From assembly GCF_003323745.1 (NCBI RefSeq), contig NZ_QOIL01000021.1, forward strand, positions 1-64,000: a stretch of 64,000 nt of DNA. The letters run 5' to 3'. Both the position numbers and the translations under genes were made by a program. This stretch comes from Sphaerisporangium album (GTDB lineage Bacteria; Actinomycetota; Actinomycetes; Streptosporangiales; Streptosporangiaceae). The notes under the pieces were generated by a model. That model ran no database searches. It saw only the letters and a list, made by a program, of their open reading frames with translations, and had not been told where the DNA came from. Numbering within the stretch: the first letter of the stretch is position 1; each line of letters opens with the position of its first letter. Below, in pieces: positions 46,417 through 62,354 of the stretch.

Positions 46417-46473
46417 CCAATGGGCGCTCATTGGCCGCTTCCCGTTTGCATTGATATCTGTCAATATCGATGC
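46417..46473. promoter_or_regulatory. Two palindromes upstream of aquaporin (probable ArsR-type operators)
   Basis: CCAATGGGCGCTCATTGG (46417-46434) is a palindrome with one mismatched pair. GCATTGATAT (46448-46457) and ATATCGATGC (46464-46473) are inverted arms around six bases, again with one mismatch. The CATTGAT/ATCRATG theme recurs at 47692, 60565 and 61971. No gene is supported between 46295 and 46771. Confidence 0.55.
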
Positions 46474-46771: not shown

Positions 46772-47503
46772 GTGAGCGCGGCATTGCCGCGCCGCGCGCT
46801 GGCTGAGTTTCTGGGCACGCTGCTGCTGGTGACGGTGGTGGTCGGGTCGGGGATCATGGCGCAGGAGCTCTCGCCCAATGACGTCGGACTCCAGCTCCTG
46901 GAGAACTCCACGGCGACCGTTTTCGGCTTGGGCGTGCTGATCGTCATGCTCGGCCCCATCTCGGGCGCGCACTTCAATCCTGTGGTGACGCTGGCCGACT
47001 GGTTCCTGCATCGGAAGCTGACCGGGTCCGACGTGGGCATCTACCTCGTCTCGCAGATCGCCGGCGCCATCGCCGGGGCGATCTTGGCCAACGCGATGTT
47101 CGACAAGCCCGCTGTCGGCTGGTCGACACACGATCGTTCCGCCGGGCATCTGCTGCTCGGGGAGGTGGTGGCCACGGCCGGGCTGGCGCTGGTCATTTTC
47201 CTGCTCACTCGGGCCGGGAACGCGCGTGTGGCGCCCGTCGCGGTCGCCTCCTATATCGGTGCCGCCTACTGGTTCACCTCCTCCACCAGCTTCGCGAACC
47301 CCGCCGTCACGATCGGACGCGCGTTCTCCGACACGTTCGCCGGGATCGCTCCGTCCTCCGTGCCGGGCTTCGTCGTCGCTCAACTGGTCGGCGGGGCGAT
47401 CGGGCTGGCCCTCGTCGCCGGCTTGTACGGCGGACCCTTGAGGCATGAAGCGGCGGACCGTGCGGACGCCGAACCGCGTCTCGTGGACCGCACCCTGACG
47501 TGA
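46772..47503 (+). CDS. MIP-family channel (aquaporin/AqpS-like)
   Basis: A 243-residue membrane channel with six transmembrane segments and the two half-helix motifs HFNPVVTLADWFL and FANPAVTIGRAFSDTFAGI. The second one is of the type seen in aquaporins encoded in arsenic-resistance operons, which let arsenite or methylarsenicals cross the membrane. GTG 46772 gives the natural start (ALAEFLGTLLLV). The ArsR-type palindromes upstream and the ArsR/ArsM genes downstream support a metalloid role; general water or glycerol transport is the alternative. Confidence 0.85.
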   Translation: MSAALPRRALAEFLGTLLLVTVVVGSGIMAQELSPNDVGLQLLENSTATVFGLGVLIVMLGPISGAHFNPVVTLADWFLHRKLTGSDVGIYLVSQIAGAIAGAILANAMFDKPAVGWSTHDRSAGHLLLGEVVATAGLALVIFLLTRAGNARVAPVAVASYIGAAYWFTSSTSFANPAVTIGRAFSDTFAGIAPSSVPGFVVAQLVGGAIGLALVAGLYGGPLRHEAADRADAEPRLVDRTLT

Positions 47504-47509
47504 GAACGC

Positions 47510-47535
47510 CGTGCCCGCAGAGAATCGCGGGCACG
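47510..47535 (+). terminator. Hairpin after aquaporin
   Basis: 9-bp stem (47510-47518 with 47527-47535) and an 8-nt loop just past the aquaporin stop. Confidence 0.6.
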
Positions 47536-47647
47536 CGTAAATGCCGCCGCGGAGGCGGAAAAACCTTCGTCATGCAGGTGAAACGTGTGACGTTCCGGCC
47601 TCTCGCGTGCCCTGCTATCGCGTCGCCGTGGGATCTTGTAAAAGGTC

Positions 47648-47711
47648 TTGACCGGCATCGGCGGCCATTTTAGTGTGAGCACTCGACGGCCACATTGATA
47701 TCTATCGATGT
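47648..47711 (+). promoter_or_regulatory. Promoter and palindromic operator of the OPT/RiPP operon
   Basis: TTGACC (47648-47653), a 17-base spacer and TAGTGT (47671-47676), then the near-palindrome ACATTGATATCTATCGATGT (47692-47711), which would cover the transcription start. It resembles the sites before the aquaporin, CobW and ArsR2 genes, so an ArsR repressor is the likely ligand. Confidence 0.65.
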
Positions 47712-47740
47712 AGCGAATCGAATGAGATGGAGGGCGCTCT

Positions 47741-49441
47741 GTGGGAGGAAACGAGCGCACCGTCTCCCCCTCCTCGCCCGATTCCATCGACACCTCGAAT
47801 GAGACGTCGAAACCACACGACTGGCGCGAGTCGTACGTGTCCGCCACGCTCATCGGCCTGGCGATCGGTGTGCTGCTGTGCGTGCTCAACGTTCTGGTCC
47901 TGTTCAGGACGGGCACGTCGTTCGGCGGGTCGGCTCTGGTCGCCGCGCTGGGCGCCGCGTTGCTGCGGGTCACCGGCGCGTTGAGCTGGCAGGCGCTCTT
48001 CGTGGTCTTCTCCATCGCCTCCAGCGGCTACGTGGCAACCGCCGCGCTCGACACCGGCATCGGGGCCGTGGTGCTGGACGGCGGTGACCTGCCGGCCTGG
48101 GGGATCCTGGTGCTGCTGGCGATGGCCTCGAACGCCGTGGGGATCGGCCTCGGCGGGCTCGTCGCGCGGACGCTGGTGGTCGCCGAGAGCCTGCCCTATC
48201 CGACCCTGAAGCCGGCCATCACCTTGATGGCGTCGCTCAGCACCAGGGCGGGACAGGAGGGCAACCGGCTCGGCCGGACGCTGCCGGTGGCCGCGGCCGT
48301 GGGTGCCGCCTGCGCCCTGGGAGTGGCTCTGTGGGGCCATGAGGCCACGCCGGAGCTTTTCGGCTCGGGCACGCATGTGGCCCTGGCATTGTCGCCCCTG
48401 CTGTACGGGGTGGGTTTTCTCATCGGCCCGCGCGCGTGCGCGTGGCTGGCGGTCGGGTCGGCGTACACCGTCGTCGTGTGGTTCCTGCAGGACCGCTCGT
48501 CGGCCCAGCCCGCGGATTACACCGCCCATCTCTCCTATCCGTGGGTGCTCGCCGCAGGCGTCGGACTGATTCTCGGGTACTCCCTCGCCGCGATCGCGCG
48601 GGTGCGCGGCCCGCTGCTGCGGGCGCTCCGCGGCGACTTCGCGAACCGCCTGATCGGTGGCCATGCTCGCTGGTGGGCCGTGGCCGCCCTGGTCGTGCTG
48701 GCGCTGTTCGCGGCGCTGTATCCTCCGGTGCTCCGATATCTGGGATTCGGGGTGCTCGGTCTGGCGCTGCTGGTCGTGGTGACCGTGTTCCTCACCCGGG
48801 CCGGAGGGGAGATCGGCCTGGTGCCGCTGGCGCCGGCCCTCTACTTCAGTGTCGTGGTGTTCGCGGTGGCCGGGGCCGACTCGGCGACGGCGGTGCTCGT
48901 GGCGTCGACCATCTGTTGCGCCGCCATCGCGGCGGTGTACTTCACCTATTCGGCGAAGGTGGTGCACGATCGCCCGGAGACCCTGACAGAGCCGCCCAGG
49001 CGTTTGACGGGGTGGACGCAGCTCGTCGGCGGGCTGGCCGGCGCTGCGATCGGCGTGCTGGTGATCGCGGTCCTCACCCGCGCCGGCGTGATCGGCGGGG
49101 GCGCGTTCCCGGCCCCCGTCGCCACCGCGGTCCGGTTCGTGGACGCCACCGTTCGCGGTTCGTCGGACTACCCGGCCACCGTGGCCCTCGCCATGGCCAT
49201 CACGGGTCCGCTGGGGGTGGGGCTGGCCTTCACCTCGGCCATGCCCACGATGATCGGCCTCGGCGTCCTGCTGCCCCCGGCCTACTCGCTGACCCTCGCC
49301 GCCGGAGGGCTGACGCAGTGGCTGCTCACCCGCCGTAATCCCGGCCGGCGCAGCGCGACGGAGATCGTCGCCTCCGGTCTGATCATCGGGGAGGGCCTGA
49401 TCACCGTGGCGGTGCTCGTCGTGCGGGAGGTCCTGAGGTGA
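47741..49441 (+). CDS. OPT-family oligopeptide/metal-chelate transporter
   Basis: A 566-residue polytopic protein with about 14-16 membrane segments (SYVSATLIGLAIGVLLCVLN, GSALVAALGAALLRV, VAESLPYPTLKPAITLMA, FLTRAGGEIGLVPLAPALYF and others). The N-terminal YVSATLIGLAIGVLLCVLNVL and the SLPYPT segment are typical of bacterial OPT/YSL transporters, which carry peptides or metal-ligand complexes with protons. GTG 47741 follows an ArsR-type operator. The peptide gene and modifying enzymes follow on the same strand, so it most likely moves the mature product, its precursor pieces or a metalloid complex. Direction cannot be told. Confidence 0.82.
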   Translation: MGGNERTVSPSSPDSIDTSNETSKPHDWRESYVSATLIGLAIGVLLCVLNVLVLFRTGTSFGGSALVAALGAALLRVTGALSWQALFVVFSIASSGYVATAALDTGIGAVVLDGGDLPAWGILVLLAMASNAVGIGLGGLVARTLVVAESLPYPTLKPAITLMASLSTRAGQEGNRLGRTLPVAAAVGAACALGVALWGHEATPELFGSGTHVALALSPLLYGVGFLIGPRACAWLAVGSAYTVVVWFLQDRSSAQPADYTAHLSYPWVLAAGVGLILGYSLAAIARVRGPLLRALRGDFANRLIGGHARWWAVAALVVLALFAALYPPVLRYLGFGVLGLALLVVVTVFLTRAGGEIGLVPLAPALYFSVVVFAVAGADSATAVLVASTICCAAIAAVYFTYSAKVVHDRPETLTEPPRRLTGWTQLVGGLAGAAIGVLVIAVLTRAGVIGGGAFPAPVATAVRFVDATVRGSSDYPATVALAMAITGPLGVGLAFTSAMPTMIGLGVLLPPAYSLTLAAGGLTQWLLTRRNPGRRSATEIVASGLIIGEGLITVAVLVVREVLR

Positions 49442-49552
49442 TCCGGGACCTTCGCCAGGGGCGTGCGCCCCACCATCGACTCTCCCTTCCGCCTGGCGGT
49501 GGGGAGCGGGCCGGAGAGCGCGGCAGAGATCACGGCGGAGGAGGTGATACCT

Positions 49553-49687
49553 ATGATCGCGATTTCCATGATCGAAAGCGCCGATGTGTCCGAGAAGCAG
49601 CCCGACTGCTGCACCGCCATGCGCGGCCGGAAGAACCTCGACGTCCTGACCAGCGTGATGGTGGACGACCCGGACGGCTGCGACTGA
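49553..49687 (+). CDS. Candidate RiPP precursor peptide (44 residues, Cys-Cys)
   Basis: ATG 49553 has an excellent GGAGGAGG site eight bases upstream, which decides this start over the longer frame from GTG 49463. The peptide has an acidic N-terminal part (MIAISMIESADVSEK), a Cys19-Cys20 pair in PDCCTAMRGRK, and a C-terminal part ending DDPDGCD with Cys43. It lies between the transporter and a radical SAM/SPASM gene, the usual place for a modified-peptide precursor. I do not recognise the family. Charged leader-like start and few, clustered cysteines suggest the core is from about residue 17 on (inference). Confidence 0.65.
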   Translation: MIAISMIESADVSEKQPDCCTAMRGRKNLDVLTSVMVDDPDGCD

Positions 49688-49787
49688 CAGCCCCGGATGT
49701 ACCGAAGAACCCGTTCCACATGTGTGCCGCCTGCCGCGCTCTCCAATTCCCGGCAACTCCATGGACACCGTTTCTGGGAGAGACCCA

Positions 49788-51311
49788 ATGCTAGTCAGCC
49801 CGAACACCGTCACCTTCTCGGTGGCGCTCCCCGAAGGCACCCTGGACCCCGCTTACCTCGACGAGAGTGGCAAGGTCAGCGTCCTGGCCAACGCGGTGTC
49901 CGGATCCATGGACATCGTCACCCCCGCCGAGGTCGCCGCGCTCGAACGGCTGCGCGCGGGAGACGCCGTCGGAGTCGACGGCGAACTCCTGACCGGCCTG
50001 CTCGAACGCGGGTACGTCTGCACGGACGCGGCCGAGGAGGAGCACAGGTACCGCTCGATCGTCGACGGCTACTTCGAGGCGATCCAGCAGGCGCCGTTCC
50101 AGTTCATGTTCATTCCGTCGTACGTGTGCAACCTCGCCTGCCCGTACTGCTTCGAGGGCGAGCTGACCACCAAGAGCCCGCGCATGGACGAGGAGATGAT
50201 CGAGGCCGCGTTCGACGCGATCCCGATGATCCAGGACCTGCACGAGAACTCGGGCCCTCCGTACATCACGCTGTTCGGCGGGGAGCCGTTGCTTGACACG
50301 GCCTACCAGCGCGGCGCGGTCGAGCAGATCCTGCGCGGGTCGTACGACCGTGGCTACCCGGTCACGGCGATCACCAACGGCGTGGCGCTAGACACGTACG
50401 TGCCGATGCTGTTGCGGTACGGCTGCGAGGAGGTCCAGGTCAGCCTGGACGGTACCCCCGAGATCCACGACAGCCGCCGCGTCTTCCGCAATGGAAAGCC
50501 GACCTTCGAGCTCATCGAGCGCGGCATCGACGTGGCCGCCGAGGCGGGCCTGCGGGTGCTGATCCGGGTGCTGGTCGACGAGCACAGCGTGGAATCCATG
50601 CCGCGCTTCGCCGAGTTCGCGCAGGCCAAGGGGTGGATCGACCATCCGAAGATCCGGCTGTTCAACGGCTTCACCAAGGCGACGACCTTCCTGTACGTGA
50701 CGCCCGACCATCCGGAGGAGAAGCGCCGGCGCATGGTCAGGGGCGACGTGAAGCCCGGACTCCAGGACGCCTTCTTCCAGATGCTGAAGGCCAACCCGCT
50801 GGTCGACCGGATGCTCAGGCCGGACCCGGCCCGGATCCGGGCGGCTGTCCTCGAAGGCGACCGGGTGCGGCCCAACTTGCAGGGATGCAGCGCGGGTACC
50901 AGCGTCGTCGCCTTCGACCCCAACGGCAGGGTCTATGGCTGCCCGGAGACCGTGGGGCGCCCGCAGCACTCGTGCGGGACGTTCTTCCCCGAGTTCCGCT
51001 ACGCGGGCGGCTACCGCGACCCCTGGCGGCACCGCCACGTGGACACCGTGCCCATGTGTCGCGAGTGCAACGTCAAGCTGTTCTGCGGGGGCGGTGGCTG
51101 CCCCATCAAGGCGTGGGCGGCCAGTGGCGGCGACTTCAACACGTGCTTCTGCCCGAAGGTGTCCAGCATCAGGACGCGGGTCGAGACCGAGCTTTCCTAC
51201 CTGCTGCCGATGGCTCTGCGCCAGCGGCGGGACCAGGTCACGAGATCCGAAGGAGAAGAGGGAACGTGGGAGCAGATGACGCGCGTGGGTTCATTTCCCT
51301 GGATGAGCTGA
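49788..51311 (+). CDS. Radical SAM/SPASM peptide maturase
   Basis: A 507-residue enzyme. The N-terminal ~90 residues look like a small winged helix (PqqD/RRE-like: VTPAEVAALERLRAGDAVGV, LTGLLERGYV) that could bind the peptide leader. The radical SAM core has CNLACPYC (CxxxCxxC) for the 4Fe-4S cluster, LFGGEPLL, and SLDGTPEIHDSRR. The C-terminal SPASM region holds many cysteines (GCSAGTSVVAFDPNGRVYGC, CRECNVKLFCGGGGC, CFC) for auxiliary clusters. Such enzymes make thioether, C-C or other bonds in ribosomal peptides. ATG 49788 follows GGGAGA; the end overlaps the methyltransferase start by 46 bases. Confidence 0.87.
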   Translation: MLVSPNTVTFSVALPEGTLDPAYLDESGKVSVLANAVSGSMDIVTPAEVAALERLRAGDAVGVDGELLTGLLERGYVCTDAAEEEHRYRSIVDGYFEAIQQAPFQFMFIPSYVCNLACPYCFEGELTTKSPRMDEEMIEAAFDAIPMIQDLHENSGPPYITLFGGEPLLDTAYQRGAVEQILRGSYDRGYPVTAITNGVALDTYVPMLLRYGCEEVQVSLDGTPEIHDSRRVFRNGKPTFELIERGIDVAAEAGLRVLIRVLVDEHSVESMPRFAEFAQAKGWIDHPKIRLFNGFTKATTFLYVTPDHPEEKRRRMVRGDVKPGLQDAFFQMLKANPLVDRMLRPDPARIRAAVLEGDRVRPNLQGCSAGTSVVAFDPNGRVYGCPETVGRPQHSCGTFFPEFRYAGGYRDPWRHRHVDTVPMCRECNVKLFCGGGGCPIKAWAASGGDFNTCFCPKVSSIRTRVETELSYLLPMALRQRRDQVTRSEGEEGTWEQMTRVGSFPWMS

Positions 51312-52159
51312 TCCGGCCACGGACCGTCGCCGAGCCGGATGCCTGCGGGTGTGCCCCGGAGTCCGCGGATCAGGCGGCCGGGTGCTGCGCGCCCACGCCC
51401 GCCGCCGCGTTCGTGCCCGTCGAGACGCATGTCAAGCAACGCTATGACGCGCTAGCGGTGCAGGGCGCGAGCACGCTGTGCTGCTCTCCCACCTCGGTGT
51501 ACACACCCGAGGAACTGGCCGCGGTTCCCGAGTGGGTCCTGGAGCTGTCCAGCGGCTGCGGTTCGCCGATGAACGCGATCGCTCTGCGGCCGGGCCAGAC
51601 GGTCGTGGACTTCGGCTGCGGCGCCGGGCTGGATCTGCTGATCGCCGCGCGCAGGGTGGGCGAGACGGGCCGGGTCATCGGGGTCGACGCGTCGATGCAG
51701 ATGGTCAGAACGGCACGCCGCGCGGCCAGGGAAATGGGGCTGTCCAACGTCGACGTGCGCGTCGGCGACATCCGCCGGCCGCCGGTGCGCGAGGCCACCG
51801 TGGACGTGGTGATGAGCAACTGCGTCCTCGGCATGTTCCCGGACAAGCAGGAGGTGCTGAGGGCCGTTGCCGGGGTCCTGCGCCCGGGCGGCGTCGCCGT
51901 GATCTCCGACGTCGTCTACTCCGACGGCGGCCCGCCCCCGCCGGACGTGGCGGTCGGCGAGTCGGCTGGGGCCGAGGACTTCGCCAGATGCGTGGTCGGC
52001 ATGACCGAAAGCCAGTACCGGGACCTGGTCCTCGGCGCGGGGTTCGGGCGTGTGGAGATGCGCAGCGACGGGCTCGTTCCCTACCGGGACGGCGCGGAGG
52101 TCACCAGCGCGATGATCTTCGCCTACCGGGACGACAGCCCCGCGCAACCGTGCTGCTGA
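51266..52159 (+). CDS. ArsM-like SAM-dependent methyltransferase
   Basis: A 297-residue class I methyltransferase with VVDFGCGAGLDLLIAARRVG for SAM. It retains cysteine positions known from arsenite methyltransferase ArsM: LCCSP, LSSGCGSP, MSNCVLGMFPDK and ARCVVGMT. Extra cysteine motifs lie at the N terminus (ACGCAPE, GCCAP) and at the very C terminus (CC), unlike ordinary ArsM. GTG 51266 follows AGGAG and overlaps the radical SAM gene, giving tight coupling. Either it methylates arsenic on the product or it is an ArsM-derived peptide methyltransferase. The conserved cysteines favour binding of trivalent arsenic, but this is inference. Confidence 0.82.
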   Translation: MGADDARGFISLDELIRPRTVAEPDACGCAPESADQAAGCCAPTPAAAFVPVETHVKQRYDALAVQGASTLCCSPTSVYTPEELAAVPEWVLELSSGCGSPMNAIALRPGQTVVDFGCGAGLDLLIAARRVGETGRVIGVDASMQMVRTARRAAREMGLSNVDVRVGDIRRPPVREATVDVVMSNCVLGMFPDKQEVLRAVAGVLRPGGVAVISDVVYSDGGPPPPDVAVGESAGAEDFARCVVGMTESQYRDLVLGAGFGRVEMRSDGLVPYRDGAEVTSAMIFAYRDDSPAQPCC

Positions 52160-53529
52160 CCGACGGCTCGCCCGCGGCCTTCCGGGTCGCGGGTCTACGC
52201 GCCGCCGACTACGCGGAGATCCGTGTCGAACGGGCCCGGATGACCGACCTGGTGTGGCGCGGCGACGGCCTGGAAAGCAGCGTGACCAGCCGGGACGAGG
52301 GCTGCTGCGCCCGGGTGATCGGCCCGGCCGGGTCCTCGTTCGCGTCGTCCACCGTGCTGGACGCGGCGGCGGTGCTGCGCCGGGCCAAACGCGACGCCTC
52401 CGCGCTGGGTGCCGCGACGGGACGCCTCGCCGGACACCGGCCCTACCGGGAAGAACCCGTCGTGGAGTTCGGCGAGCCGGCGGAGCGGGTCGGCGTGGCG
52501 GAGAAGACCGAACTGCTCGGTTCCTACCACGCGATGGCATTGGCCGCGCACCCGTCCGTCACCGGGGCGCTGGTCTACTACCGGGAACGCGTGGCGGACG
52601 TCGAGCTCGTCACCAGCGAGGGAACCGGCATCGGCTACCGGCGCAGGGACCTGACCCTGCAGATCACGGTCTACGCCGACGGAGGCGCCGCGCGGACCGC
52701 GGGGTCGGTGTCCGTGGGCAGCGGCGGCGACTTCTCCGTGGTGCGCGACCTCGCCGCCCGCGTGGAGTCGGCCGTCGCGACCGCCGTGGACCTGCGCGAC
52801 GCGCCCGTCCTCGAAGCCGGGACCTACGACGTCGTCTGCGACGGCCCGCTGTCCGGCATCTGGGCGCACGAGACGATCGGGCACCTGGCCGAGGCCGACC
52901 ATCATCTCGGGGACGCCGGCCTGCAGCGGTCGCTGGCCGCCGGCTGCAGGCTCGGCCCGCCCGTCCTCACCATCACCGATCACCCGGGACGGCCGGGCGC
53001 GCGGGGGTTCGTCCCCGTGGACGACGAGGGAACCGGTGGAGAGCCGGTCGCCCTGCTGCGCGAGGGAGTCGTGGCCCGTCCCCGGCTGCACGACCGCTCG
53101 ACCGCCGCGGCCTTCGGTGAGACGCCCACCGGGAACGCGCGCGCCCTGAGCTTCCGCCACCCGCCGCTGCCCCGGCTGCGGACCATCGCGATCGCCCCGG
53201 GTGCCGCGTCCGAAGAGGAACTGATCGGCGGAGTGGGCCGCGGGCTGCTGGCGCGCGGCGTCCTCGGCGGCCAAACCGACCGGGCCGGGTTCACGTTCAT
53301 GCCGGCCGAATGCCGGGAGATCCGTGACGGTGAGGTCGGCCGGCTGGTCAGAGGCGTGGTGCTGTCCGGAGAGGTGCTCGGCGCCTTCGAGGCCATCGAC
53401 GCGGTCGGCGGGGAGCAGTGGCGCGGCGACACCTCGGCGAGCTGCGGCAAGCAGGGGCAGCATCCCTTGCCGGTCAGCTCCTGGGCGCCTCCGCTCCGGT
53501 TGCGAGGTATACGTGTCCACCCTGGCTGA
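52150..53529 (+). CDS. tldD: TldD-family metalloprotease
   Basis: A 459-residue protease subunit with the TldD zinc motif HETIGHLAEAD (His240, Glu241, His245). GTG 52150 overlaps the methyltransferase stop by 10 bases. TldD works with TldE (next gene) as a heterodimer that threads and cuts peptides after modification; it matures microcin B17 and removes RiPP leaders elsewhere. It has a GCC motif near the N terminus (RDEGCCARV) and an unusual C-terminal tail (SCGKQGQHPLPVSSWAPPLR). In a cluster with a candidate precursor, leader removal is the likely job. Confidence 0.87.
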   Translation: MLLTDGSPAAFRVAGLRAADYAEIRVERARMTDLVWRGDGLESSVTSRDEGCCARVIGPAGSSFASSTVLDAAAVLRRAKRDASALGAATGRLAGHRPYREEPVVEFGEPAERVGVAEKTELLGSYHAMALAAHPSVTGALVYYRERVADVELVTSEGTGIGYRRRDLTLQITVYADGGAARTAGSVSVGSGGDFSVVRDLAARVESAVATAVDLRDAPVLEAGTYDVVCDGPLSGIWAHETIGHLAEADHHLGDAGLQRSLAAGCRLGPPVLTITDHPGRPGARGFVPVDDEGTGGEPVALLREGVVARPRLHDRSTAAAFGETPTGNARALSFRHPPLPRLRTIAIAPGAASEEELIGGVGRGLLARGVLGGQTDRAGFTFMPAECREIRDGEVGRLVRGVVLSGEVLGAFEAIDAVGGEQWRGDTSASCGKQGQHPLPVSSWAPPLRLRGIRVHPG

Positions 53530-54850
53530 GGGGGTGGAACGGATCGGCGAGGCCGTCGCGGCGCACGCCGAGCGCTGGGTAGTGCTCGGCGTCGAGCGCG
53601 ACGACACCGTGGTGGAGGTCGGCTCGGGTGTCCCGGACGCGGTCAGGTCGTCCCATGAGACCGCGCTGTGCCTGCGCGTGTACCGCGACGGCAGGGTGGG
53701 CACCGCCTGCACGACGCGTCCCGGCGACGTGGAGGAACTGGTCGGCGATGCGGTGCGGAACGCGGCGCACGGGCCCCCCGCGCCCACGGATATCGCCCCG
53801 CCCGGCTTCGCGCCACCCGCAATGCCCGCCACCGTCTTCGACGGCGACGTGCGATCCGTTCGTCTGCTCGCCGAGCGATTGGGAGCGCTGCAACACGCCG
53901 TGGGGCTGATGGTGCACGGCACGGTCACGAGGACCGAGCAAACGGTCCACCGCGCGGCTCCGGAGGGACGGACGGAGACCGGCGACGGCTTCTTCCACAT
54001 CGCCGCCTTGGCCGAAGGCGCCGTCGCGCAGTTGCCCTGGACCGGTTGGACCCGCTCTGCGACGCTGCCGGCCGCGCTCACCGCGTGGTTGCGCGCGGCG
54101 GCCGAGTGGGATGGACTGCCGTCCGCCGAGGCGCCGCAGCGGGGTCACGATGTGCTGCTGGCGCCCTCGGCGGTGCACACCCTGCTCACTCCGCTGGTCA
54201 CCGCGCTGAGCGGCACCGCCGTCACGGCCGGCCGGTCCTTCGCCGCCGGGCGCCTGGGGGAGCGCCTCCTGCACCCCTCGATCAGCCTGTGCGACCACCC
54301 CTCCGCGGACGGAGACGGAGACGCGGAGGGAACGGGAGGGCTGGCCTGGCCGGTCGGCGACGACGACGGCGTGCCCTGCGCCGGGCTGACGCTGGTCGAC
54401 CGAGGCGTCCCGGTCGGGATCTACCACAGCCGCCGGACGGCGGCCGCGTGCGGGGAGGCGCCCACCGGGCACGGTTTCCGTGGGAACGCGCTGCGCCGCA
54501 CGGTGCTGAAACCGGTGACACCAGTGCTGAACGGGGCCACGCTGTCCGCCGGACCCGCCGACACCGGCTCCTTCGACGAATTGCTCGGCGGCGTGCGCGA
54601 GGGGGTGCTGATCGAATCGCTCATGGGCGGCCAGCAGCGCGCCGGGTCGTCCCCGGTCGTCGAGGCCAGGGTGCGGCTCGGCTTCCTGATCAGGAACGGC
54701 CGGGTGGCCGGCGTCCTGCGTCCGTATCCGATCGCCCTGGACCTGCGCGAAGTGCTCGGCACCCGCTTCCGCGCGGCCGGCGACCGCCCATGGGCCGTGA
54801 GCCGTGTCTGGACGGGCCGACTGCCGTTCGTGCTGGCCGGCGGAGCATGA
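53513..54850 (+). CDS. tldE: TldE/PmbA-family partner of TldD
   Basis: A 445-residue protein of the TldE (PmbA) side: it lacks the HExxxH motif but shares the fold, with GLTLVDRGVPVGIYHSRRTA, GHGFRGNALRRTVLKPVTP and FDELLGGVREGVLIESLMGG near the end. GTG 53513, with GAGG upstream, overlaps the TldD stop by 17 bases. It would pair with TldD to form the peptide chamber. Confidence 0.85.
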   Translation: MSTLAEGVERIGEAVAAHAERWVVLGVERDDTVVEVGSGVPDAVRSSHETALCLRVYRDGRVGTACTTRPGDVEELVGDAVRNAAHGPPAPTDIAPPGFAPPAMPATVFDGDVRSVRLLAERLGALQHAVGLMVHGTVTRTEQTVHRAAPEGRTETGDGFFHIAALAEGAVAQLPWTGWTRSATLPAALTAWLRAAAEWDGLPSAEAPQRGHDVLLAPSAVHTLLTPLVTALSGTAVTAGRSFAAGRLGERLLHPSISLCDHPSADGDGDAEGTGGLAWPVGDDDGVPCAGLTLVDRGVPVGIYHSRRTAAACGEAPTGHGFRGNALRRTVLKPVTPVLNGATLSAGPADTGSFDELLGGVREGVLIESLMGGQQRAGSSPVVEARVRLGFLIRNGRVAGVLRPYPIALDLREVLGTRFRAAGDRPWAVSRVWTGRLPFVLAGGA

Positions 54851-54865
54851 GGCGAGGAGGGACCG

Positions 54866-56089
54866 ATGTATGACGTCATCGTGGTCGGTGGCGGCGTGAC
54901 CGGTGCCGCGAGCGCCGCCCTGCTGGCTCGGCAAGGTCTGCGGGTCATGCTCTGCGACCGCACCGGCCTGCCCGCGCCCGCCGTTTCCACCCACTTCTTC
55001 GGCCCCTCCGTGCTGTCCTTCCTGCACGGCCTCGGGGTGCTGGACGAGGTGCTCGCGACCGGGGCGCCACCGCTGCGGCGCTGGCATCTGGAGGTCGAGG
55101 GCGGCTACTACGGGGCGCCCATGCTGCCCCGCTCGCCGTACCACTACAACCTGTGCGTGCGCCGCGAGACGCTGAGCGCGATCCTGCTGCGCGCCGCGAG
55201 CCGGCACGGAGCCGAGATCAGGGAACGCAGCCCGGTCCGGTCGCTGCGCCGGGACGGCGACCAGGTCACCGGGGTGGAGGGGGACGGCTGGTCGGAGAAG
55301 GCCAGGATCGTCGTCGGCGCCGACGGACGCGGGTCCCAGGTCGCCCGCCGGACCGGGGCCGCCACCACCTTCGACGCCGGGGTCATGCGCTGCACCTTCC
55401 ACGCCTACTGGGAAGGCGTCGTCCCGTTGCCCGCGCCGGCCCTGGAGCTGTGGCACGACGGCGGGCACGTGCTCCAGGTCGGCCCGTGCGACGGCGGCCG
55501 CTGGGTGGTGATGCTGTCCGCCCCCATCGAGCAGTACGACATGCTCCGCAGCGGCGCGAGCACCGGGTACGAAGCCCGGCTCCGTGCGATCCCCGCCATG
55601 GCCGACCGGCTGCGCGGCGCGCGCCGGGTCTCGCCCGTGTACGGGTCCAAGACCCTGCGCAACTTCCATCGCGATCCCGCGGGGCCAGGGTGGCGCCTGG
55701 CCGGTGACGCCTACTGCCACAAGGATCCGCTGTTCGGCGCAGGTATCGCCGACGGGTGCGCGGCGGCGCGGGCCCTGGCCGACACGATGCCGCCCGACGG
55801 CGACTCGCGGGAGGCGCGGGAGAGCTACGCGGCAGCCCTGGACGACCACGTGGGACAGAAAGTCCGCACAGGCCTGGCGGGACTGCGTGTCGACCCGCCC
55901 CAGCCTGGCCAGCTCGCCTGGATCCGCGGAGTGCTCGCCCACCCCGGCCTGGCCCTGGAGATGGCCCGCCGCTGCTCGGAGCTGTTCGCCGGGCTGCCGG
56001 AGGACCGCCGGGCCTTTTGGCAGCGGGTCGCCGACGGCGCCGCCGACATTCTGGACCTGCCGCCCGCGGCCCGGGTGGACCCGTCGTGA
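54866..56089 (+). CDS. FAD-dependent oxidoreductase (monooxygenase/geranylgeranyl-reductase type)
   Basis: A 407-residue flavoprotein of the PHBH/GGR fold: N-terminal VIVVGGGVTGAASAALLARQG, middle VVGADGRGSQVARRTGA, and C-terminal WRLAGDAYCHKDPLFGAGIADG (GD motif that contacts FAD). ATG 54866 follows GAGGAGGG 15 bases after tldE; the stop overlaps the peptidase start (GTGA). It could hydroxylate, dehydrogenate or halogenate the peptide; no lysine/WxWxIP halogenase motif is seen, so halogenation is unlikely. Confidence 0.85.
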   Translation: MYDVIVVGGGVTGAASAALLARQGLRVMLCDRTGLPAPAVSTHFFGPSVLSFLHGLGVLDEVLATGAPPLRRWHLEVEGGYYGAPMLPRSPYHYNLCVRRETLSAILLRAASRHGAEIRERSPVRSLRRDGDQVTGVEGDGWSEKARIVVGADGRGSQVARRTGAATTFDAGVMRCTFHAYWEGVVPLPAPALELWHDGGHVLQVGPCDGGRWVVMLSAPIEQYDMLRSGASTGYEARLRAIPAMADRLRGARRVSPVYGSKTLRNFHRDPAGPGWRLAGDAYCHKDPLFGAGIADGCAAARALADTMPPDGDSREARESYAAALDDHVGQKVRTGLAGLRVDPPQPGQLAWIRGVLAHPGLALEMARRCSELFAGLPEDRRAFWQRVADGAADILDLPPAARVDPS

Positions 56090-57606
56090 ACCTGGCCGTG
56101 CCCGGTTACCTGTCCGGCCACGTCGACGACCTCGTGGCCCTGCAGGCGTGGGTGGCGCACGCCCGCTGGCTGGCCGCCACGGGGCAGAGCGCGGACGACC
56201 CGATCCCGTCCGAGGAGGGTCACGCCTGGCTGACCGGCGGCGAGCTCGTCGCGCGGGCGCTGGAGTGCGGAGATCTGCACTACGCCGAGGAACTCGTCCT
56301 GTGGTACTTCCGGGTTCGGCTGATCGGCGCGACCGCGCGCCTGCGGGCGCTCCAGCGCACCGTCACCGCCGACGTCGGCGGCCGGGCGCTCACACACGGA
56401 GAGCTGGCCGCGCTTTCCCGGACCGCCACCGACAGGCGGCTCCGCGGCCAGGTGCGATCCGCGCTGGCGGACGTCGGTGAGCGGCTCCGCGACGCCCGGC
56501 GGCGATGGCTCGACGACTACGCCGAGGCGCGCGCCGGGCTGGGCTTCGCGACGCACGCCGCGCTGGTCCGGGCGCTGCATCCGGAGGTGGACCGGTTCGT
56601 CGCGCACGCCCGGAACTGGCTGGACGCCACCCGCGCCGGGTTCCTGGAGCGGTCGCGCGGCTGGCGCGAGCACGACGGGCTGTCCGCGCCGGCACTGGGC
56701 GATGCCCGCCTGGTCGCCGCCCGCGCCATCGTGCCCGAAGGCGCGGCCGGACCGCTCGAAAGCGTCCGCTCGGCCGTCCGCGCGTGGGGGCTGGGCGAGC
56801 TCCTAGCGCGCATCCGCGTCGACGACGCCGTACGGCCGGGCAAGTCGGGGACCGCCTTCTGCTCGCCGGTGGCGCCGCCGGCCGACGTGCGGGTGTCCAT
56901 CGCTCCGGGCAGGACGCTCGGACACTACGTCACGGTGCTGCACGAGATGGGTCACGCCCTCCACTTCACCGCGGGCACCCGGCACCCCGCCGACCTGTGG
57001 CGCACTCCCCCGGCGCTGACCGAGGCGTTCGGCTTCGCCGTGGAACCGGTGGTGCGGCGGCCGGACTGGCAGAGGCACCACCTCGGGGTCATGGTGGGCG
57101 CCGAGGCCGTCGAGCGCGCCTCGTTCGCCCGGGAGCACGTGCGGCGCGTGGTCGCGGCAAGCCTTTGCTACGAGATGACCGTGCACGACGGCCACCTCGA
57201 TCCGGCCGCCGAGTACGTGCGCGTGTACGAGACCGAGTTCGGGGTTACGGTCGACGGCCGGGCCGCGTGGGATCGACTGCAGACGTACCTGGAGGGCAAG
57301 CCCTGCTACCCGCTGGTGTACCACCAGGCGTTCGCGCTGGCGGGGGTATTGCAGGATGATCTGGTGCAGCTCGCGGGGGAGCGCTGGTACCTGGGAGCGG
57401 ACGCGGGCCCCGCTCTGCGGACGCTGTTCGGCCGGTTCGGCGCCACCGCCGATGTGTGGGAGTGGTTCGATCGCTCACCCTGCGCGGTCGAGCGCGGTCA
57501 GGTCCACGGCGAGGGTGAGTTCGGCCCTGGCCGGGCCGATCAGCCTGGGCAGCACGGGCGGGCCGCCGTCCAGAAGGCGGTCGACCTCGGTCAGCGTCCG
57601 GGGTGA
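56086..57606 (+). CDS. M3-family zinc oligopeptidase
   Basis: A 506-residue metallopeptidase with HEMGHALHF (His286, Glu287, His290) and downstream zinc ligand region LTEAFGFAVEPVV. M3 enzymes cut short peptides inside cells. GTG 56086 overlaps the flavoprotein stop. The last ~40 residues lie antisense to the M1 gene and look like run-on sequence (GQVHGEGEFGPGRADQPGQ); the natural fold probably ends near residue 465 (WEWFDRS). Together with TldD/TldE it may clear the cleaved leader or trim the product. Confidence 0.85.
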   Translation: MNLAVPGYLSGHVDDLVALQAWVAHARWLAATGQSADDPIPSEEGHAWLTGGELVARALECGDLHYAEELVLWYFRVRLIGATARLRALQRTVTADVGGRALTHGELAALSRTATDRRLRGQVRSALADVGERLRDARRRWLDDYAEARAGLGFATHAALVRALHPEVDRFVAHARNWLDATRAGFLERSRGWREHDGLSAPALGDARLVAARAIVPEGAAGPLESVRSAVRAWGLGELLARIRVDDAVRPGKSGTAFCSPVAPPADVRVSIAPGRTLGHYVTVLHEMGHALHFTAGTRHPADLWRTPPALTEAFGFAVEPVVRRPDWQRHHLGVMVGAEAVERASFAREHVRRVVAASLCYEMTVHDGHLDPAAEYVRVYETEFGVTVDGRAAWDRLQTYLEGKPCYPLVYHQAFALAGVLQDDLVQLAGERWYLGADAGPALRTLFGRFGATADVWEWFDRSPCAVERGQVHGEGEFGPGRADQPGQHGRAAVQKAVDLGQRPG

Positions 57607-59976
57607 GACCGACCAGGCGGGGAACATCCGGATCGCGATGGTCCGGGCCGGCTCCGCGTCGCCGGCATCGGTCACCAGCGGCGGCACGTCCTGTACGTAG
57701 CGCGCGGCGTACGGCGCGAGCACGTCGTGCTGGCCGGGGTGGACGAAGCCGCTCGCCAGCGCGCGGACCTGGGCGGTGCTCGTGCTGTCCAGGATGGTCC
57801 GCCACGCCCACTCCTTGGCCGCCGCGGTGGGCGCCGACGCCCTGAGCCGCTCGACTCGCCGCTCTCGCACGCCGATGAGGCCGTGGGCGATCTCCTCCGG
57901 GGACTCCCCGTGCGCGACCAGCGCGCGAGCCAGGCGCCAGCGCAGGTCGTCGTCCATCGCGATCGGGGCCGCCCCGTGCGTCCAGTCCCGTAGCCGGGCG
58001 CACTGGGTGGTCGTCAGGACGGCGTCCGCGGCCGCCCGGGCCGCCACCAGCCGGTGGTCGGGGCCGGCGTCACGGCTCGTGGCGAGCTCCAGCAGGAGGT
58101 CGGCGAGAGCCGGCCAGCCATGGGCGCGGGCCCAGTCCTGGTCGGTGTAGGAGGCGAGGACGGTCGCGGCCTGGCCGAACAGGCGTTGCACCACGCCGAT
58201 CTGCGTCTCCGCCGCGGCCCCGCCGATGACCATCGTCAGAAACCGGCGCGGCGGGAGCTCCCGGTGCCGCACCATCTCCCATGCGGCGGTCCAGCAGAGC
58301 GAGCGGGCCATGGGGTCGCGCAGACGGCCGACCCGCCGCACGATCTCCTCGGCGGAGCGGTCGTCGAGGAGGATCCGGCAGTAGGTGAGGTCGTCGTCGT
58401 TGGGAAGCACGAGCGGTCCGCACCTGGTTCCGGTGAGCGCGTTCACCCGGGTGCGCGGCCCTTCGACGTCGACCTCGTGCCGCGCGACGCGCGTCAGGTC
58501 GCCGTGTCGGTCCTCGGCGTAGACGCCGACCGCGAGGCGGTGCGGCCTGAGCGACCCGGCCGGCGCGTGGAGCAGGTCGAACCGGGTGAAGCGTCCGTCC
58601 TCGTCGAGGCTGAAGTCCGCACGAATGTCGGTCAGTCCGGCTGTGTACAGCCAGGCGTCCGCCCACGCGGTCAGGTCGCGGTCACCGGCCTCCTGAAGGG
58701 CGGCGATCATCTCGGCGCGGCCTGCGACGCCGAAGGCGTGGTCCGCGAAGTAGTGCCGCATGCCCGCCAGGAACCGGTCGAGGCCGAGGCGGGCCACGAG
58801 CTGGCGCAGCACGCTCGCGCCCTTGTGATACGTGAGCGCGTCGAACGCCGAGCCGGCCGCGCCCAGGTCGGGGACATCGGCCACGACGGGGTGGGTGGAC
58901 GGCGACTGGTCCAGAGCGTAGGCGCGGGCCTTCTTGCCCGCGGTGAAGTCGGCCCACGCGTCGGTGTGGTCGGTGAGCCGCGTCACCGCGTGGATGCCGG
59001 CCCAGGTGGCGAACGCCTCGTTCAGCCACAGGTCGTCCCACCACCGGAACGTGACGAGGTCCCCGAACCACTGGTGGGAGAGCTCGTGGAAGATCATTTC
59101 GGCTCGGCGGCGGTGCGCGTGCCGGGTGACGGTCCGGTCGAAGACGAACGTCTCCGCCGCGATGACGCAGCCGGCGTTCTCCATCGCCCCGAAGTTGAAC
59201 TCGGGGGCGAAGCACAGGTCGAGTTTCCCGAACGGGTACGGCGTCGCGAACGCCCCGGAGAAGAACTCGATCCCGGCACGGAGCTGATCGAGCAACGCGG
59301 CCGCGTCGACGTGCTTCGCCAGAGACCGCCGGGCGTGCACACCGAGGGGCACCGGCCCACCCTGGTCCGCCGTCCACGAGGCCCACGGGCCTGCCGCGAC
59401 GGCAACCAGGTAGGTGCTGATCGGCCGGGTCGACGCGAACCGGCGGACGTCGACCCAGCCGCCGTGGCCGGGCGAGGGAGGGCTGGCGAGGGGGGCGTTG
59501 GACAGCACGCCCCAGTCGGCCGGCGCCCGCACGTCGAGCTCGAAGGGAGCCTTGAGGTCGGGCTGGTCGAAGCAGGCGAAAACGGCCGGCGCGTGGCCGG
59601 GCTGCAGATGGCTGTAGAGGTACACCTGCCGATCCTCGGGATCCACGAATCGGTGCAGGCCCTCGCCGCAGGTGGAGTAGTCGTAGTCTCCGTCCACGAC
59701 CAGCTCGTTCTCGGCCGCCAGACCGGACAGGCGGATCCGCCCAGCGCCTTCGTGGTCGAGTGGACGTCCATTGAGCAGGACCGACCGCACCCGTCGAGGG
59801 AGGGCGTCCACCCAGCTCGAAGCCCCGGGGCTGTGGCAGGTGAAGCGAATCCTGCTCCTGGACCGGAATGTCGGCTCCTCCATATGGCTCAGATCCAGGC
59901 TTATCCGATAGGAACGCACGTCCAGCAGGACGGCGCGCTCCGTGGCCTCGGCACGGGTCAGCGATGCGCGAGGCAT
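57475..59976 (-). CDS. pepN: M1-family aminopeptidase N
   Basis: An 833-residue zinc aminopeptidase: GAMEN substrate motif (NFGAMENAGC), HELSHQWFGD (His297, His301) with the downstream NEAFATW glutamate, and a long helical C-terminal domain. ATG 59976 has a perfect AGGAGG upstream. It is convergent with the M3 gene, overlapping it by 132 bases, and divergent from ArsR1 with a 95-bp shared promoter region, so it is likely under ArsR1 control. It could remove N-terminal residues of the peptide after leader cleavage or recycle the leader. Confidence 0.92.
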   Translation of the reverse strand: MPRASLTRAEATERAVLLDVRSYRISLDLSHMEEPTFRSRSRIRFTCHSPGASSWVDALPRRVRSVLLNGRPLDHEGAGRIRLSGLAAENELVVDGDYDYSTCGEGLHRFVDPEDRQVYLYSHLQPGHAPAVFACFDQPDLKAPFELDVRAPADWGVLSNAPLASPPSPGHGGWVDVRRFASTRPISTYLVAVAAGPWASWTADQGGPVPLGVHARRSLAKHVDAAALLDQLRAGIEFFSGAFATPYPFGKLDLCFAPEFNFGAMENAGCVIAAETFVFDRTVTRHAHRRRAEMIFHELSHQWFGDLVTFRWWDDLWLNEAFATWAGIHAVTRLTDHTDAWADFTAGKKARAYALDQSPSTHPVVADVPDLGAAGSAFDALTYHKGASVLRQLVARLGLDRFLAGMRHYFADHAFGVAGRAEMIAALQEAGDRDLTAWADAWLYTAGLTDIRADFSLDEDGRFTRFDLLHAPAGSLRPHRLAVGVYAEDRHGDLTRVARHEVDVEGPRTRVNALTGTRCGPLVLPNDDDLTYCRILLDDRSAEEIVRRVGRLRDPMARSLCWTAAWEMVRHRELPPRRFLTMVIGGAAAETQIGVVQRLFGQAATVLASYTDQDWARAHGWPALADLLLELATSRDAGPDHRLVAARAAADAVLTTTQCARLRDWTHGAAPIAMDDDLRWRLARALVAHGESPEEIAHGLIGVRERRVERLRASAPTAAAKEWAWRTILDSTSTAQVRALASGFVHPGQHDVLAPYAARYVQDVPPLVTDAGDAEPARTIAIRMFPAWSVSPRTLTEVDRLLDGGPPVLPRLIGPARAELTLAVDLTALDRAG

Positions 59977-60071
59977 GAAGAAACCTCCTGAACCAGAGGG
60001 TTGTCTAGACTTAAGAGAGAAATCGCCGGGTGGGTCGCGCCCGGGGCGCCTCGGGAAGGGGTCTGATCGTC
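59977..60071. promoter_or_regulatory. Divergent promoter region of pepN and ArsR1
   Basis: AT-rich TCTAGACTTAAGAGA (60004-60018) lies in the 95-bp gap between the divergent starts and is the only AT-rich block there; it is a candidate ArsR operator. It only loosely resembles the TTAGA...TCTAA site of ArsR3. Confidence 0.45.
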
Positions 60072-60461
60072 ATGGCCGAGCGCGACGAGCCCGTGCTGCT
60101 GCCGGACGAGGAGCTGCCGCCCGTCGCGCCGGGCGTCCCGCGTCCCGCCCGGGTGACGGAGCCGCTGACCCGGGAGCAGAGCATCAAGCTCGCCGCGGGG
60201 TTCAAGGCGCTCGCCGATCCGGTTCGGCTGCGCCTGCTTTCGCTCGTCGCCTCTCACCTCGACGGCGAGGCATGCGTGTGCGATCTCGTCGGAGCGTTCG
60301 ACCTCACGCAGCCGACCATCAGCCATCACCTCAGGGTTCTGCGTGACGCCGGGCTCGTCACATCGACCCGCCGGGGGACCTGGGTCTATTACCGTGTGGT
60401 CCCCGAGGCGCTCACCGCGCTGACGGGCATCATCGCCGTGCCCTCCGTCGCCGCCCGGTAA
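60072..60461 (+). CDS. arsR: ArsR/SmtB-family metalloregulator 1
   Basis: A 129-residue winged-helix repressor (FKALADPVRLRLLSLVAS, TQPTISHHLRVLRDAGLV, RRGTWVYYRVVPEAL). The sensor motif EACVCDLVGAF on helix alpha-3 is the CVCDL type that binds As(III) or Sb(III) in classical ArsR. ATG 60072 follows GGAAGG. There is an N-terminal acidic extension of about 30 residues with no metal motif. It is divergent from pepN and close in sequence to ArsR3 (63577-63942). Confidence 0.9.
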   Translation: MAERDEPVLLPDEELPPVAPGVPRPARVTEPLTREQSIKLAAGFKALADPVRLRLLSLVASHLDGEACVCDLVGAFDLTQPTISHHLRVLRDAGLVTSTRRGTWVYYRVVPEALTALTGIIAVPSVAAR

Positions 60462-60564: not shown

Positions 60565-60667
60565 GCATTGATGGCCATCAATGCGCATCTCAAAGGGTGG
60601 GCATTGATAGTGAACAATTCTCTCCGTGTGGCAGGCTCTTGACCTCTCTGAATGTGCCTTGTTAGTT
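60565..60667 (+). promoter_or_regulatory. Palindromic operator and promoter of the CobW-type gene
   Basis: GCATTGATGGCCATCAATGC (60565-60584) is a perfect 20-bp palindrome. GCATTGATAGTGAACAATTC (60601-60620) is a degenerate second copy. TTGACC (60639-60644), a 17-base spacer and TTAGTT (60662-60667) form a promoter right after. Here the operators lie upstream of the -35, unlike the OPT promoter. Confidence 0.65.
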
Positions 60668-60792: not shown

Positions 60793-61893
60793 TTGATCAC
60801 CTTCATGACCTTGAGCGGTTTCCTCGGCGCGGGTAAGACCACCACGTTGGTCGCGGTCGCCAAACATCTCCAGGAGATGGGGCGCAGGGTGGCGGTCATC
60901 ACCAACGACCAGGGGACCGAGCTCGTGGACACCCAGCTCGCCCGCTCCGCCATCGCCGAGGCCGGCGAGGTGACCGGCGGTTGTTTCTGCTGCCGTTTCG
61001 AAGACCTGCTGACCGTGGCGCAGCGCTTGGTCGACGAGCACGGGGTCGACACACTGCTCGCCGAGGCGGTCGGCAGCTGCACCGATCTGCAGGCGACCGT
61101 CATCCGTCCGCTGAGCGCTCACTATGGTGAGCGATTCGCTCCCGCGCCTCTCGTCGTGGTCGTGGAACCGGAAAGGCTTCAGGCGCTCCGCACCGCGCTG
61201 CCGCTGGACGATACAGATTCGGACATGTCTTATTTGTTCGGCAAGCAGTTACAAGAAGCCGATGTGATCGCCCTTAACAAGATCGACCTTCTCGACGCTG
61301 ACCGGGTCGCCGCCATCCTGGCGGATTTGAGCGAGCGACACCCGACAGCCACCGTTCTCGGCTACTCGGCCAAATCCGGCGAGGGGATCGATCGGCTCGT
61401 TTCCCATTGGCTGGGAGCGGAGCCCGCCGAACGCGGGCTGGAAATCGACTATGACCGCTACGCCAATGCCGAGGCCGCGCTGGCGTGGCTGAACCTCAGC
61501 CTGACCGTGACGGCGGTGGACGGTTTCGACCCCGACGCCTGGGCCCGCTCGCTCCTCGACCACCTGTCGGCCACGACCGCGCGTCACGATTGGATGATCG
61601 GCCACGTGAAGGTCAGCCTGGAGTCCGCCGGCTTCCTGGCCAAGATGAGCCTCACCGCCACCGGCGCCGGACCGTCCGCGGACGCGGTGGCGGGGACGTC
61701 GTTCACTGAGGCGGAGGTTCGGATCAACGCCCGGGTCGCCTGCGAACCGGCCGAACTCGACGCCGCCGTCGCCGAGGCGGTGAAGGAGGTGGCCGTAGCG
61801 ACCGGGACGTCCGCCGTGCAGAGCGCGGGTGTCCCCTCGTTCAAGCCGGGCTACCCGCGCCCCACCTACCGGATCCCGGTCACCGCGAACTGA
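60793..61893 (+). CDS. CobW/COG0523-family GTPase (metal chaperone)
   Basis: A 366-residue G3E GTPase: Walker A GFLGAGKTT (residues 9-17), metal-binding CxCC (Cys64, Cys66, Cys67 in GGCFCCRFEDL), LNKIDLLD for guanine and a C-terminal CobW domain. TTG 60793 has GTGAGG upstream; ATG 60805 is the alternative and would leave only four residues before the P-loop segment. These proteins insert or deliver metals such as Zn or Co to partner proteins. Position in an ArsR island with palindromes before it suggests metal delivery to the zinc peptidases or the cluster enzymes, but that is speculation. Confidence 0.88.
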   Translation: MITFMTLSGFLGAGKTTTLVAVAKHLQEMGRRVAVITNDQGTELVDTQLARSAIAEAGEVTGGCFCCRFEDLLTVAQRLVDEHGVDTLLAEAVGSCTDLQATVIRPLSAHYGERFAPAPLVVVVEPERLQALRTALPLDDTDSDMSYLFGKQLQEADVIALNKIDLLDADRVAAILADLSERHPTATVLGYSAKSGEGIDRLVSHWLGAEPAERGLEIDYDRYANAEAALAWLNLSLTVTAVDGFDPDAWARSLLDHLSATTARHDWMIGHVKVSLESAGFLAKMSLTATGAGPSADAVAGTSFTEAEVRINARVACEPAELDAAVAEAVKEVAVATGTSAVQSAGVPSFKPGYPRPTYRIPVTAN

Positions 61894-61970: not shown

Positions 61971-62005
61971 GCATTCATCGATTATCGTCGATTATCGATG
62001 AATGC
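61971..62005. promoter_or_regulatory. 35-bp inverted repeat overlapping the ArsR2 start codon
   Basis: Arms GCATTCATCGAT (61971-61982) and ATCGATGAATGC (61994-62005) are perfect inverted repeats around 11 bases. The ArsR2 start ATG (61998-62000) lies inside the right arm, so repressor binding would cover the initiation region; the mRNA may be leaderless or nearly so. Confidence 0.75.
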
Positions 62006-62354
62006 TGATAATGGGCCATTGGCACGGGACGAGGCCGAGGAGTACGCGAGCTGGTTCAAGGCGCTGGCGGACGCCACGCGCCTTCAACTGGTGTCGCTGC
62101 TGGCGCGACGCCGCGTGCCGATGACCGTGGGCGAGATCGTGACGGGGTCCGGGGTGGGTCAGTCGACGGTCTCCCACCATTTGAAGATCCTGGCGGAGGT
62201 CGGTTTCGTCCTGGTCGAGCGACGCGGCACCGCGAGGTTCTACCGGATCAACGAGACGTGCGTGCGCTGCTTCCCCACCGCCGCGGACGTCGTGATGGGC
62301 AACCCGGCCCCCGCCGCCCCGGCATGCGACCAAGGAGGCCGCCGTGGCCCATGA
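61998..62354 (+). CDS. arsR: ArsR-family regulator 2
   Basis: A 118-residue winged-helix repressor (FKALADATRLQLVSLLARR, VGQSTVSHHLKILAEVGFVL, RRGTARFYRINETC). It lacks the CVCDL motif of ArsR1/3; instead two cysteines lie in the C-terminal part (ETCVRCFPTA) plus one at ACDQ, suggesting a different metal site. ATG 61998 is inside its own operator. The stop overlaps the ArsM-GNAT start by 11 bases, so regulator and enzyme form one operon. Confidence 0.88.
   Translation: MNADNGPLARDEAEEYASWFKALADATRLQLVSLLARRRVPMTVGEIVTGSGVGQSTVSHHLKILAEVGFVLVERRGTARFYRINETCVRCFPTAADVVMGNPAPAAPACDQGGRRGP

Follow-up and report, generated by a model that had tools for sequence, protein, structure and literature searches.

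In the available text of PMC8552651, the organoarsenical arsinothricin is produced through arsQML, an As(III)-inducible operon that encodes an ArsM enzyme, a radical S-adenosylmethionine (SAM) enzyme and a transporter; its radical SAM enzyme, ArsL, acts on As(III) and has three conserved cysteines that likely hold a single cluster, and ArsM enzymes carry four conserved cysteines. The bisenarsan cluster of Streptomyces, as far as the accessible part of PMC12159101 goes, contains arsenic-resistance and arsenic-regulation genes and no SAM-dependent enzymes, and it needs homologues of EPSP synthase, phosphoglycerate mutase and phosphonopyruvate decarboxylase. Among ribosomally synthesized and post-translationally modified peptides (RiPPs), the TldD/TldE pair (M103) takes part in the maturation of microcin B17, klebsazolicin and pearlins and can strip the leader until halted by modified residues; the tldD/E genes often lie outside the cluster, and M1 proteases also act in RiPP maturation (available portion of PMC10885120). 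Here we describe a locus in a 64,000-nucleotide (nt) stretch of the 9.3-Mb Sphaerisporangium album genome (G000), hereafter referred to as the window. Within the arsenic-resistance genes of a few soil bacteria lies a conserved operon with the apparent purpose of producing, modifying and trimming a small three-cysteine peptide. We give an even chance to the reading that it is an arsenic-responsive RiPP pathway, set in an ars island, whose product handles arsenic.

Conservation of the operon and its candidate precursor

The operon consists of eight plus-strand genes (47741-57606), namely an OPT-family transporter (47741..49441; PF03169, E 1.7e-21), a candidate precursor peptide of 44 residues (49553..49687), a peptide-maturase-like radical SAM/SPASM enzyme (49788..51311; PF04055, E 5.4e-19; ATG start suggested by alignment), the arsenite-methyltransferase-like ArsM1 (51266..52159), a TldD-like metallopeptidase (52150..53529), its TldE-like partner (53513..54850), a flavin adenine dinucleotide (FAD)-dependent oxidoreductase (54866..56089) and an M3-like peptidase (56086..57606). 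The spacings from OPT onward are +111, +100, -46, -10, -17, +15 and -4 nt. A PepN-type M1 aminopeptidase gene (57475..59976, minus strand) is convergent to the operon and overlaps the M3-like gene by 132 nt, and the gene for an ArsR/SmtB regulator, ArsR1, follows (60030..60461, plus strand). A preliminary description of this DNA had reported the eight-gene run, an M1 aminopeptidase convergent to it and a nearby ArsR gene, and each was recovered in place. It had also staked its proposal on the gene set and a small Cys-Cys peptide being conserved together in other genomes, and the two were indeed kept together at all ten loci that we recovered.

These ten loci belong to Sphaerisporangium (two: the window and S. 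melleum, G004), Microbispora (six: M. bryophytorum, G076; M. amethystogenes, G075; M. triticiradicis, G089; M. rosea, G082; Microbispora sp. H11081, G085; and G084, assigned to the same genus) and Streptomyces (two: Streptomyces sp. ODS25 and G805). The gene order OPT, peptide, radical SAM, ArsM1, TldD, TldE, FAD enzyme, M3-like peptidase, convergent M1 and ArsR1 was preserved in 10/10, and a CobW gene followed ArsR1 in nine; in ODS25, no CobW was found in the 676 bases following ArsR1, which hold a minus-strand open reading frame instead. The proteins of the Streptomyces loci are 40-75% identical to those of the window.

Among 345 genomes of the order, 10 radical SAM matches reached E 1e-30 or better. 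Eight of these belonged to complete clusters, from the window, a congener and six genomes of a sister genus. The remaining two (L012 and L013) were 30-35% identical and lay in unrelated neighbourhoods (L021 and L022), where one weak OPT-like match in L021 overlapped Pfam FtsX and the other scanned proteins were unrelated. Two short peptide patterns detected seven loci in a species-genome collection, six of them already found and the seventh that of ODS25, and a 392-genome sample of another genus added only G805, which we assign to Streptomyces because its radical SAM protein is 86% identical to that of ODS25. The phylum sample (396 genomes) returned 16 matches, comprising the window and 15 distant proteins (158.6-207.8 bits), and the three matches in the class sample (394 genomes) were all known. 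Two other families yielded 0/220 and 0/211, an empty result that in such a search proves little. In plasmid records, the nearest radical SAM proteins were 27-31% identical (three records), and the peptide search gave three matches at E 4 to 9, none adjoining a radical SAM gene judging by displayed names. The system is rare and patchy within the genomes searched. The radical SAM protein of S. melleum was 96-97% identical to three Microbispora proteins but shared 88% identity with the window protein, which comes from its congener; this suggests horizontal transfer. As the six Microbispora loci and S. melleum form nearly one lineage, the ten loci represent about three independent lineages.

All ten loci encode the peptide as a 44-residue frame preceded by GGAGG. 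Among the four distinct sequences, which share the motifs DCCTA[ML]RGRKNLDV and DP[DE]GC[DE], Cys19, Cys20 and Cys43 are invariant. Variable residues fall within positions 2-17 and 32-38, and the stretches 18-31 (M/L at 23) and 39-44 (D/E at 41 and 44) are near-invariant; the earlier proposal that residues 16-44 form the core is a guess. The ratio of nonsynonymous to synonymous substitution rates (dN/dS) was 0.15-0.46 in the six differing pairs of seven computed, the seventh (G004/G082) being identical in DNA, and a control on the single pair window/G082 revealed no excess of silent change in the two other frames. Conservation, ribosome site and codon evidence thus rule out a chance reading frame. 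At every locus, this small conserved precursor gene stands beside a peptide-modifying enzyme and peptidases, which is the make-up of a RiPP cluster.

Candidate modifying enzymes, operator-like sites and neighbouring genes

The solved chains closest to ArsM1 are arsenic methyltransferases. Cysteines 44, 72, 174 and 224 of CmArsM, which we take to be its metalloid cysteines, all aligned in ArsM1 (Cys73, 98, 186 and 242) and were invariant in the five orthologues (62-89% identical to the window ArsM1) and the one ArsM2 aligned. The protein scored 176.8 bits against PRK11873, under the curated cut-off of 263. ArsM1 retains these cysteines although a separate ArsM2 is present in the island in 6/10 loci (in two pieces in G082). 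It also ends in Cys-Cys, invariant in the five orthologues aligned, and ArsM2 has no such end. We know of no RiPP system with an ArsM-type enzyme; the simplest role for ArsM1 would be to methylate arsenic that is attached to the peptide or set free together with it.

The radical SAM enzyme contains the CxxxCxxC motif as CNLACPYC, and its C-terminal region is Cys-rich with SPASM-type spacing, the cysteines being invariant in seven aligned sequences. Its best NCBIfam matches are peptide maturases, all of them below cut-off: CefB of Cys-rich peptides (TIGR04463, 114.1 bits vs 600), then the ranthipeptide enzyme PapB (96.3 vs 340) and the thioether-forming SCIFF maturase (91.4 vs 425). The closest solved relative by sequence is CteB (5wgg), from a sactipeptide thioether study, and a structure model with a predicted local distance difference test (pLDDT) score of 52 gave Foldseek template modelling (TM) scores of 0.32-0.35 to CteB, a hint only. 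In the same low-scoring model the N-terminal part comprises three strands and then helices, which may resemble a RiPP recognition element, and it had no PqqD-type Pfam match. Because the best matches of the enzyme include thioether-forming maturases, a thioether at or near the Cys-Cys is the likeliest first step.

Motifs detected in the window proteins were HETIGH in TldD and not in TldE, HEMGH, HELSH...E and GGGVTG. The TldD protein has Pfam domains above cut-off, and its partner was recognized by Pfam and motif scan; the paired genes, with HExxxH in TldD and none in TldE, are those of a TldD/TldE heterodimer (M103). The M1 aminopeptidase scored 781 bits against TIGR02412, above the cut-off of 591; its gene appears split in S. 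melleum, owing to undetermined bases in the assembly. With regard to the enzymes named in the preliminary description, the methyltransferase did prove to keep all four ArsM cysteines, and the M3 peptidase was borne out by its HEMGH motif but stayed weak as a family call, with TIGR02290 at E 1.9e-7 and 30 bits (cut-off 562) and nothing matched in Pfam. With catalytic motifs in three peptidases, a short product is probable. The FAD enzyme is QhpG-like by profile (NF049967, E 7.6e-21, below cut-off; PF01494). The nearest solved chain bears the name halogenase; this role was rejected for the FAD enzyme, in which no WxWx[IL]P motif was found. Since Phe, Trp, Tyr and His are all absent from the window peptide, the target of the flavoprotein cannot be an aromatic residue of this peptide.

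We next considered the regulatory sequences. The pattern ATYGAYNNNYATCRAT, derived from the sites themselves, had five strand matches at three places in the window, versus 0.00 in shuffles. The strict palindrome CATYGATNNNYATCRATGY with 0 mismatches was found at only two places in the whole genome, before OPT (47692..47711) and before CobW (60566..60584); one further one-mismatch match lay elsewhere, and none appeared in the reversed control. Shuffles and the whole-genome count rule out a chance pattern, although the patterns had been derived from the very sites that they matched. A looser palindrome precedes OPT and CobW in all seven other Streptosporangiaceae loci (8/8 with the window), and a similar one before the gene of a MIP-family channel was matched in the window (46450..46465, about 306 nt 5' of the gene as called) and in G075 only. 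Both Streptomyces loci have a perfect 22-bp palindrome before OPT. Upstream of CobW in G805 (L050:18303-18740), another palindrome, CAATCACAGATTGTGATTG, is visible by eye, which suggests another regulator there. ArsR1 scored 101.8 bits against NF033788 (cut-off 55), as an ArsR/SmtB protein should, and carries CVCDL, with CVC[DE]L present in the three sequences inspected.

Counting genes within the stretches fetched around each locus, we found that all ten had ArsR1 plus one or more other arsenic-type genes close by. ArsN1-like genes were present in nine loci, ArsC-like in seven, ArsO-like in five and ArsK-like in two, and a MIP channel lay beside or near the operon in seven. The window channel (46772..47503, plus strand; PF00230, E 2.2e-28), of aquaporin/aquaglyceroporin type, is directly upstream of the operon. 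On the other side are, all on the plus strand, a CobW/G3E-type GTPase (60805..61893; TIGR02475, E 2.9e-17, below cut-off), the regulator ArsR2 (61998..62354; NF033788, 78.5 bits, above cut-off) and ArsM2 fused in one frame to an ArsN1-like acetyltransferase (62344..63561; PRK11873, 235.6 bits, cut-off 263; ArsN1a, 114.5 bits, cut-off 170). The corresponding ArsM-ArsN1 match of G082 (L058) is in pieces, and only a 110-residue ArsN1 part is left in G084 (L059). Beyond the window end (L056:4231-5606), an ArsC-like protein adjoins a fusion protein that combines an ArsR-type with an ArsC-like domain. A simple gene call also placed a plus-strand reading frame of about 2080 codons at 7522-13764.

The efflux gene ACR3 was searched in nine genomes. 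In six of them it is found at a distance of 14-23 kb from the gene of the radical SAM enzyme, whole in G075, G082, G084 and G805, and on another contig in G085; neither Sphaerisporangium genome gave a match. Both ACR3 proteins scanned were above cut-off, as were the matches in 5/7 ACR3-bearing genomes. This classical efflux gene seems to be decaying or missing where the operon is retained. ArsB gave 22 matches in 9/9 genomes, all above the Pfam cut-off at 44-93 bits; any of these may be an arsenite pump, so we make no claim that Sphaerisporangium is without a pump despite having no ACR3 match.

Possible roles of the operon

In the pathway we propose, ArsR1 would occupy the palindromes upstream of OPT and of CobW and be released once As(III) binds to its Cys-x-Cys. 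The radical SAM/SPASM enzyme would bind the 44-residue peptide and cross-link or activate it near Cys19-Cys20, perhaps also at Cys43, most likely through a thioether, after which the flavoprotein would oxidise the modified peptide further. The substrate of ArsM1 may be arsenic carried by the modified peptide or the freed product. TldD/TldE together with the M3-like and M1 enzymes would trim the peptide to a short product, and OPT would carry this product across the membrane, outward or back in. The sequence itself documents the set of genes and the peptide that it includes, along with the operator pattern, the motifs and the arsenic-type genes around the operon. Several observations count for an arsenic RiPP pathway: a gene set and order held at 10/10 loci down to 40-75% identity in Streptomyces, the invariant peptide cysteines and those of ArsM1, the palindrome shared by OPT and CobW, the 22-bp palindrome of Streptomyces, ars neighbours at every locus, ACR3 near the operon in 6/9 genomes, and the matches to thioether-forming maturases.

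Other observations weigh against such a pathway. The Streptomyces operator is unlike that of Streptosporangiaceae and was not found before CobW of G805. The preliminary description had envisaged a promoter with an operator like those of neighbouring ars-type genes; an operator-like palindrome shared with the CobW upstream region is there, but a sigma-70 consensus scan of 46300-49800 gave no promoter. CobW suggests some other metal, and both it and ArsR1 could respond to another ion. All scanned ArsN1, ArsO, ArsK and ArsC matches were below NCBI cut-offs, G082 and G084 have broken or truncated copies of ArsM2 and ArsN1, and remnants are all that is left of the nearby ACR3 in G076 (C61:38403-38630, 77 residues) and G089 (C134:23772-23921, 50 residues). 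The stretches fetched for S. melleum hold only ArsR1, CobW and the MIP gene, and the ars genes next to the operon may share a refuge with it rather than a function. The arsenic link is strong but circumstantial. The arsenic-inducible, modified-peptide reading of the preliminary description finds partial support in its RiPP logic and in the arsenic-type genes found in two bacterial families; induction by arsenite and a modified or arsenic-bearing peptide are putative.

How arsenic might be handled can be answered in several ways. Tentatively, and with less confidence than the pathway as a whole, we can envisage an organoarsenical RiPP, the first of its kind, in which the radical SAM/SPASM enzyme and ArsM1 would fix arsenic held by the Cys-Cys onto the peptide and methylate it, the peptidases would free a small arsenic-bearing peptide or amino acid, OPT would export it and the nearby ArsN1-like acetyltransferase would give self-protection. 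It is rather unlikely that the product is instead an arsenic-binding peptide, a ribosomal counterpart of phytochelatin whose Cys-Cys...Cys thiols chelate As(III) for export of the complex by OPT, with ArsM1 as a separate detoxification enzyme and no C-As bond to the peptide. Three-thiolate As(III) sites are known in other proteins, and the three invariant cysteines would suffice for one; the transporter within the operon and the arsenic neighbourhood also fit. However, the radical SAM enzyme, the flavoprotein and the three peptidases with catalytic motifs exceed the needs of a chelator, and thioether formation would consume its thiols.

Two further explanations leave arsenic out of the product. 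OPT relatives transport metal-peptide complexes, and the operon shares its palindrome with CobW in 8/8 Streptosporangiaceae loci, as might be expected if the operon dealt with metal stress or made a metallophore for a different ion (for instance zinc, cadmium or copper), with ArsR1 as sensor, CobW as chaperone and the ars genes as mere neighbours; we nevertheless consider this very improbable, since the operon sits among arsenic-type genes in two bacterial families and ArsM1 is of the arsenite-methyltransferase type. Arsenic could also be only a signal for an arsenic-free antibiotic or signalling peptide, with ArsM1 methylating the peptide or something else. A radical SAM enzyme with TldD/TldE is ordinary RiPP equipment (available portion of PMC10885120), and a patchy distribution with signs of horizontal transfer is also that of antibiotic clusters, but the metalloid cysteines of ArsM1, needless for a plain peptide methylase, are kept across its diverged orthologues, and we regard this explanation as unlikely. 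In the reading that we favour, arsenic would be a substrate of the pathway and not only its signal. If the arsenic RiPP reading is true, an arsenic-controlled ribosomal peptide pathway would join RiPP chemistry to the arsenic cycle, and could provide a genetically encoded route to arsenic-peptide bonds or arsenic-binding peptides. The gene set is compact and can be moved into a laboratory host, where the possible connection of arsenic handling with natural products of the RiPP type can be tested directly.

Comparison with known systems

In ranked listings of the openly licensed literature searched, neither an arsenic RiPP nor this gene set was found. The likeness to arsinothricin lies in the combination of an ArsM enzyme, a radical SAM enzyme and a transporter; by contrast, arsQML in its available description has no precursor peptide and no peptidases, and the window operon departs from the arsQML type, with its ArsL-type enzyme and no peptide, in having a SPASM-type radical SAM enzyme beside a conserved peptide gene. 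With bisenarsan the locus shares an actinomycete host and arsenic-resistance and arsenic-regulation genes, but the three homologues that bisenarsan requires were unmatched among the operon proteins scanned, and that cluster, in its accessible account, has no SAM-dependent enzymes. The RiPP systems that use M103 proteases, as far as they are covered by the source available, likewise have HExxxH in TldD and none in TldE, whereas the window pair is a dedicated operon member accompanied by M3-like and M1 peptidases.

The SCIFF/ranthipeptide systems (CteB, PapB) are similar in that a small Cys-bearing peptide adjoins a radical SAM/SPASM enzyme, and CteB (5wgg/5why) is the best solved match of the window enzyme both by sequence and by the weak model; the window operon differs in adding ArsM1, TldD/TldE, a flavoprotein and putative ars control, and no maturase cut-off was reached. 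In quinohemoprotein maturation, the radical SAM enzyme QhpD acts with the flavin monooxygenase QhpG, which hydroxylates Trp. The window likewise pairs a QhpG-like flavoprotein with a radical SAM/SPASM enzyme, but its peptide has no Trp and its profile scores are below cut-off. Given that no matching literature was found and that, in the texts available, arsinothricin involves no peptide and bisenarsan no SAM-dependent enzymes, we regard the operon as a RiPP cluster of a new variant, and possibly of a new class if its product carries arsenic.

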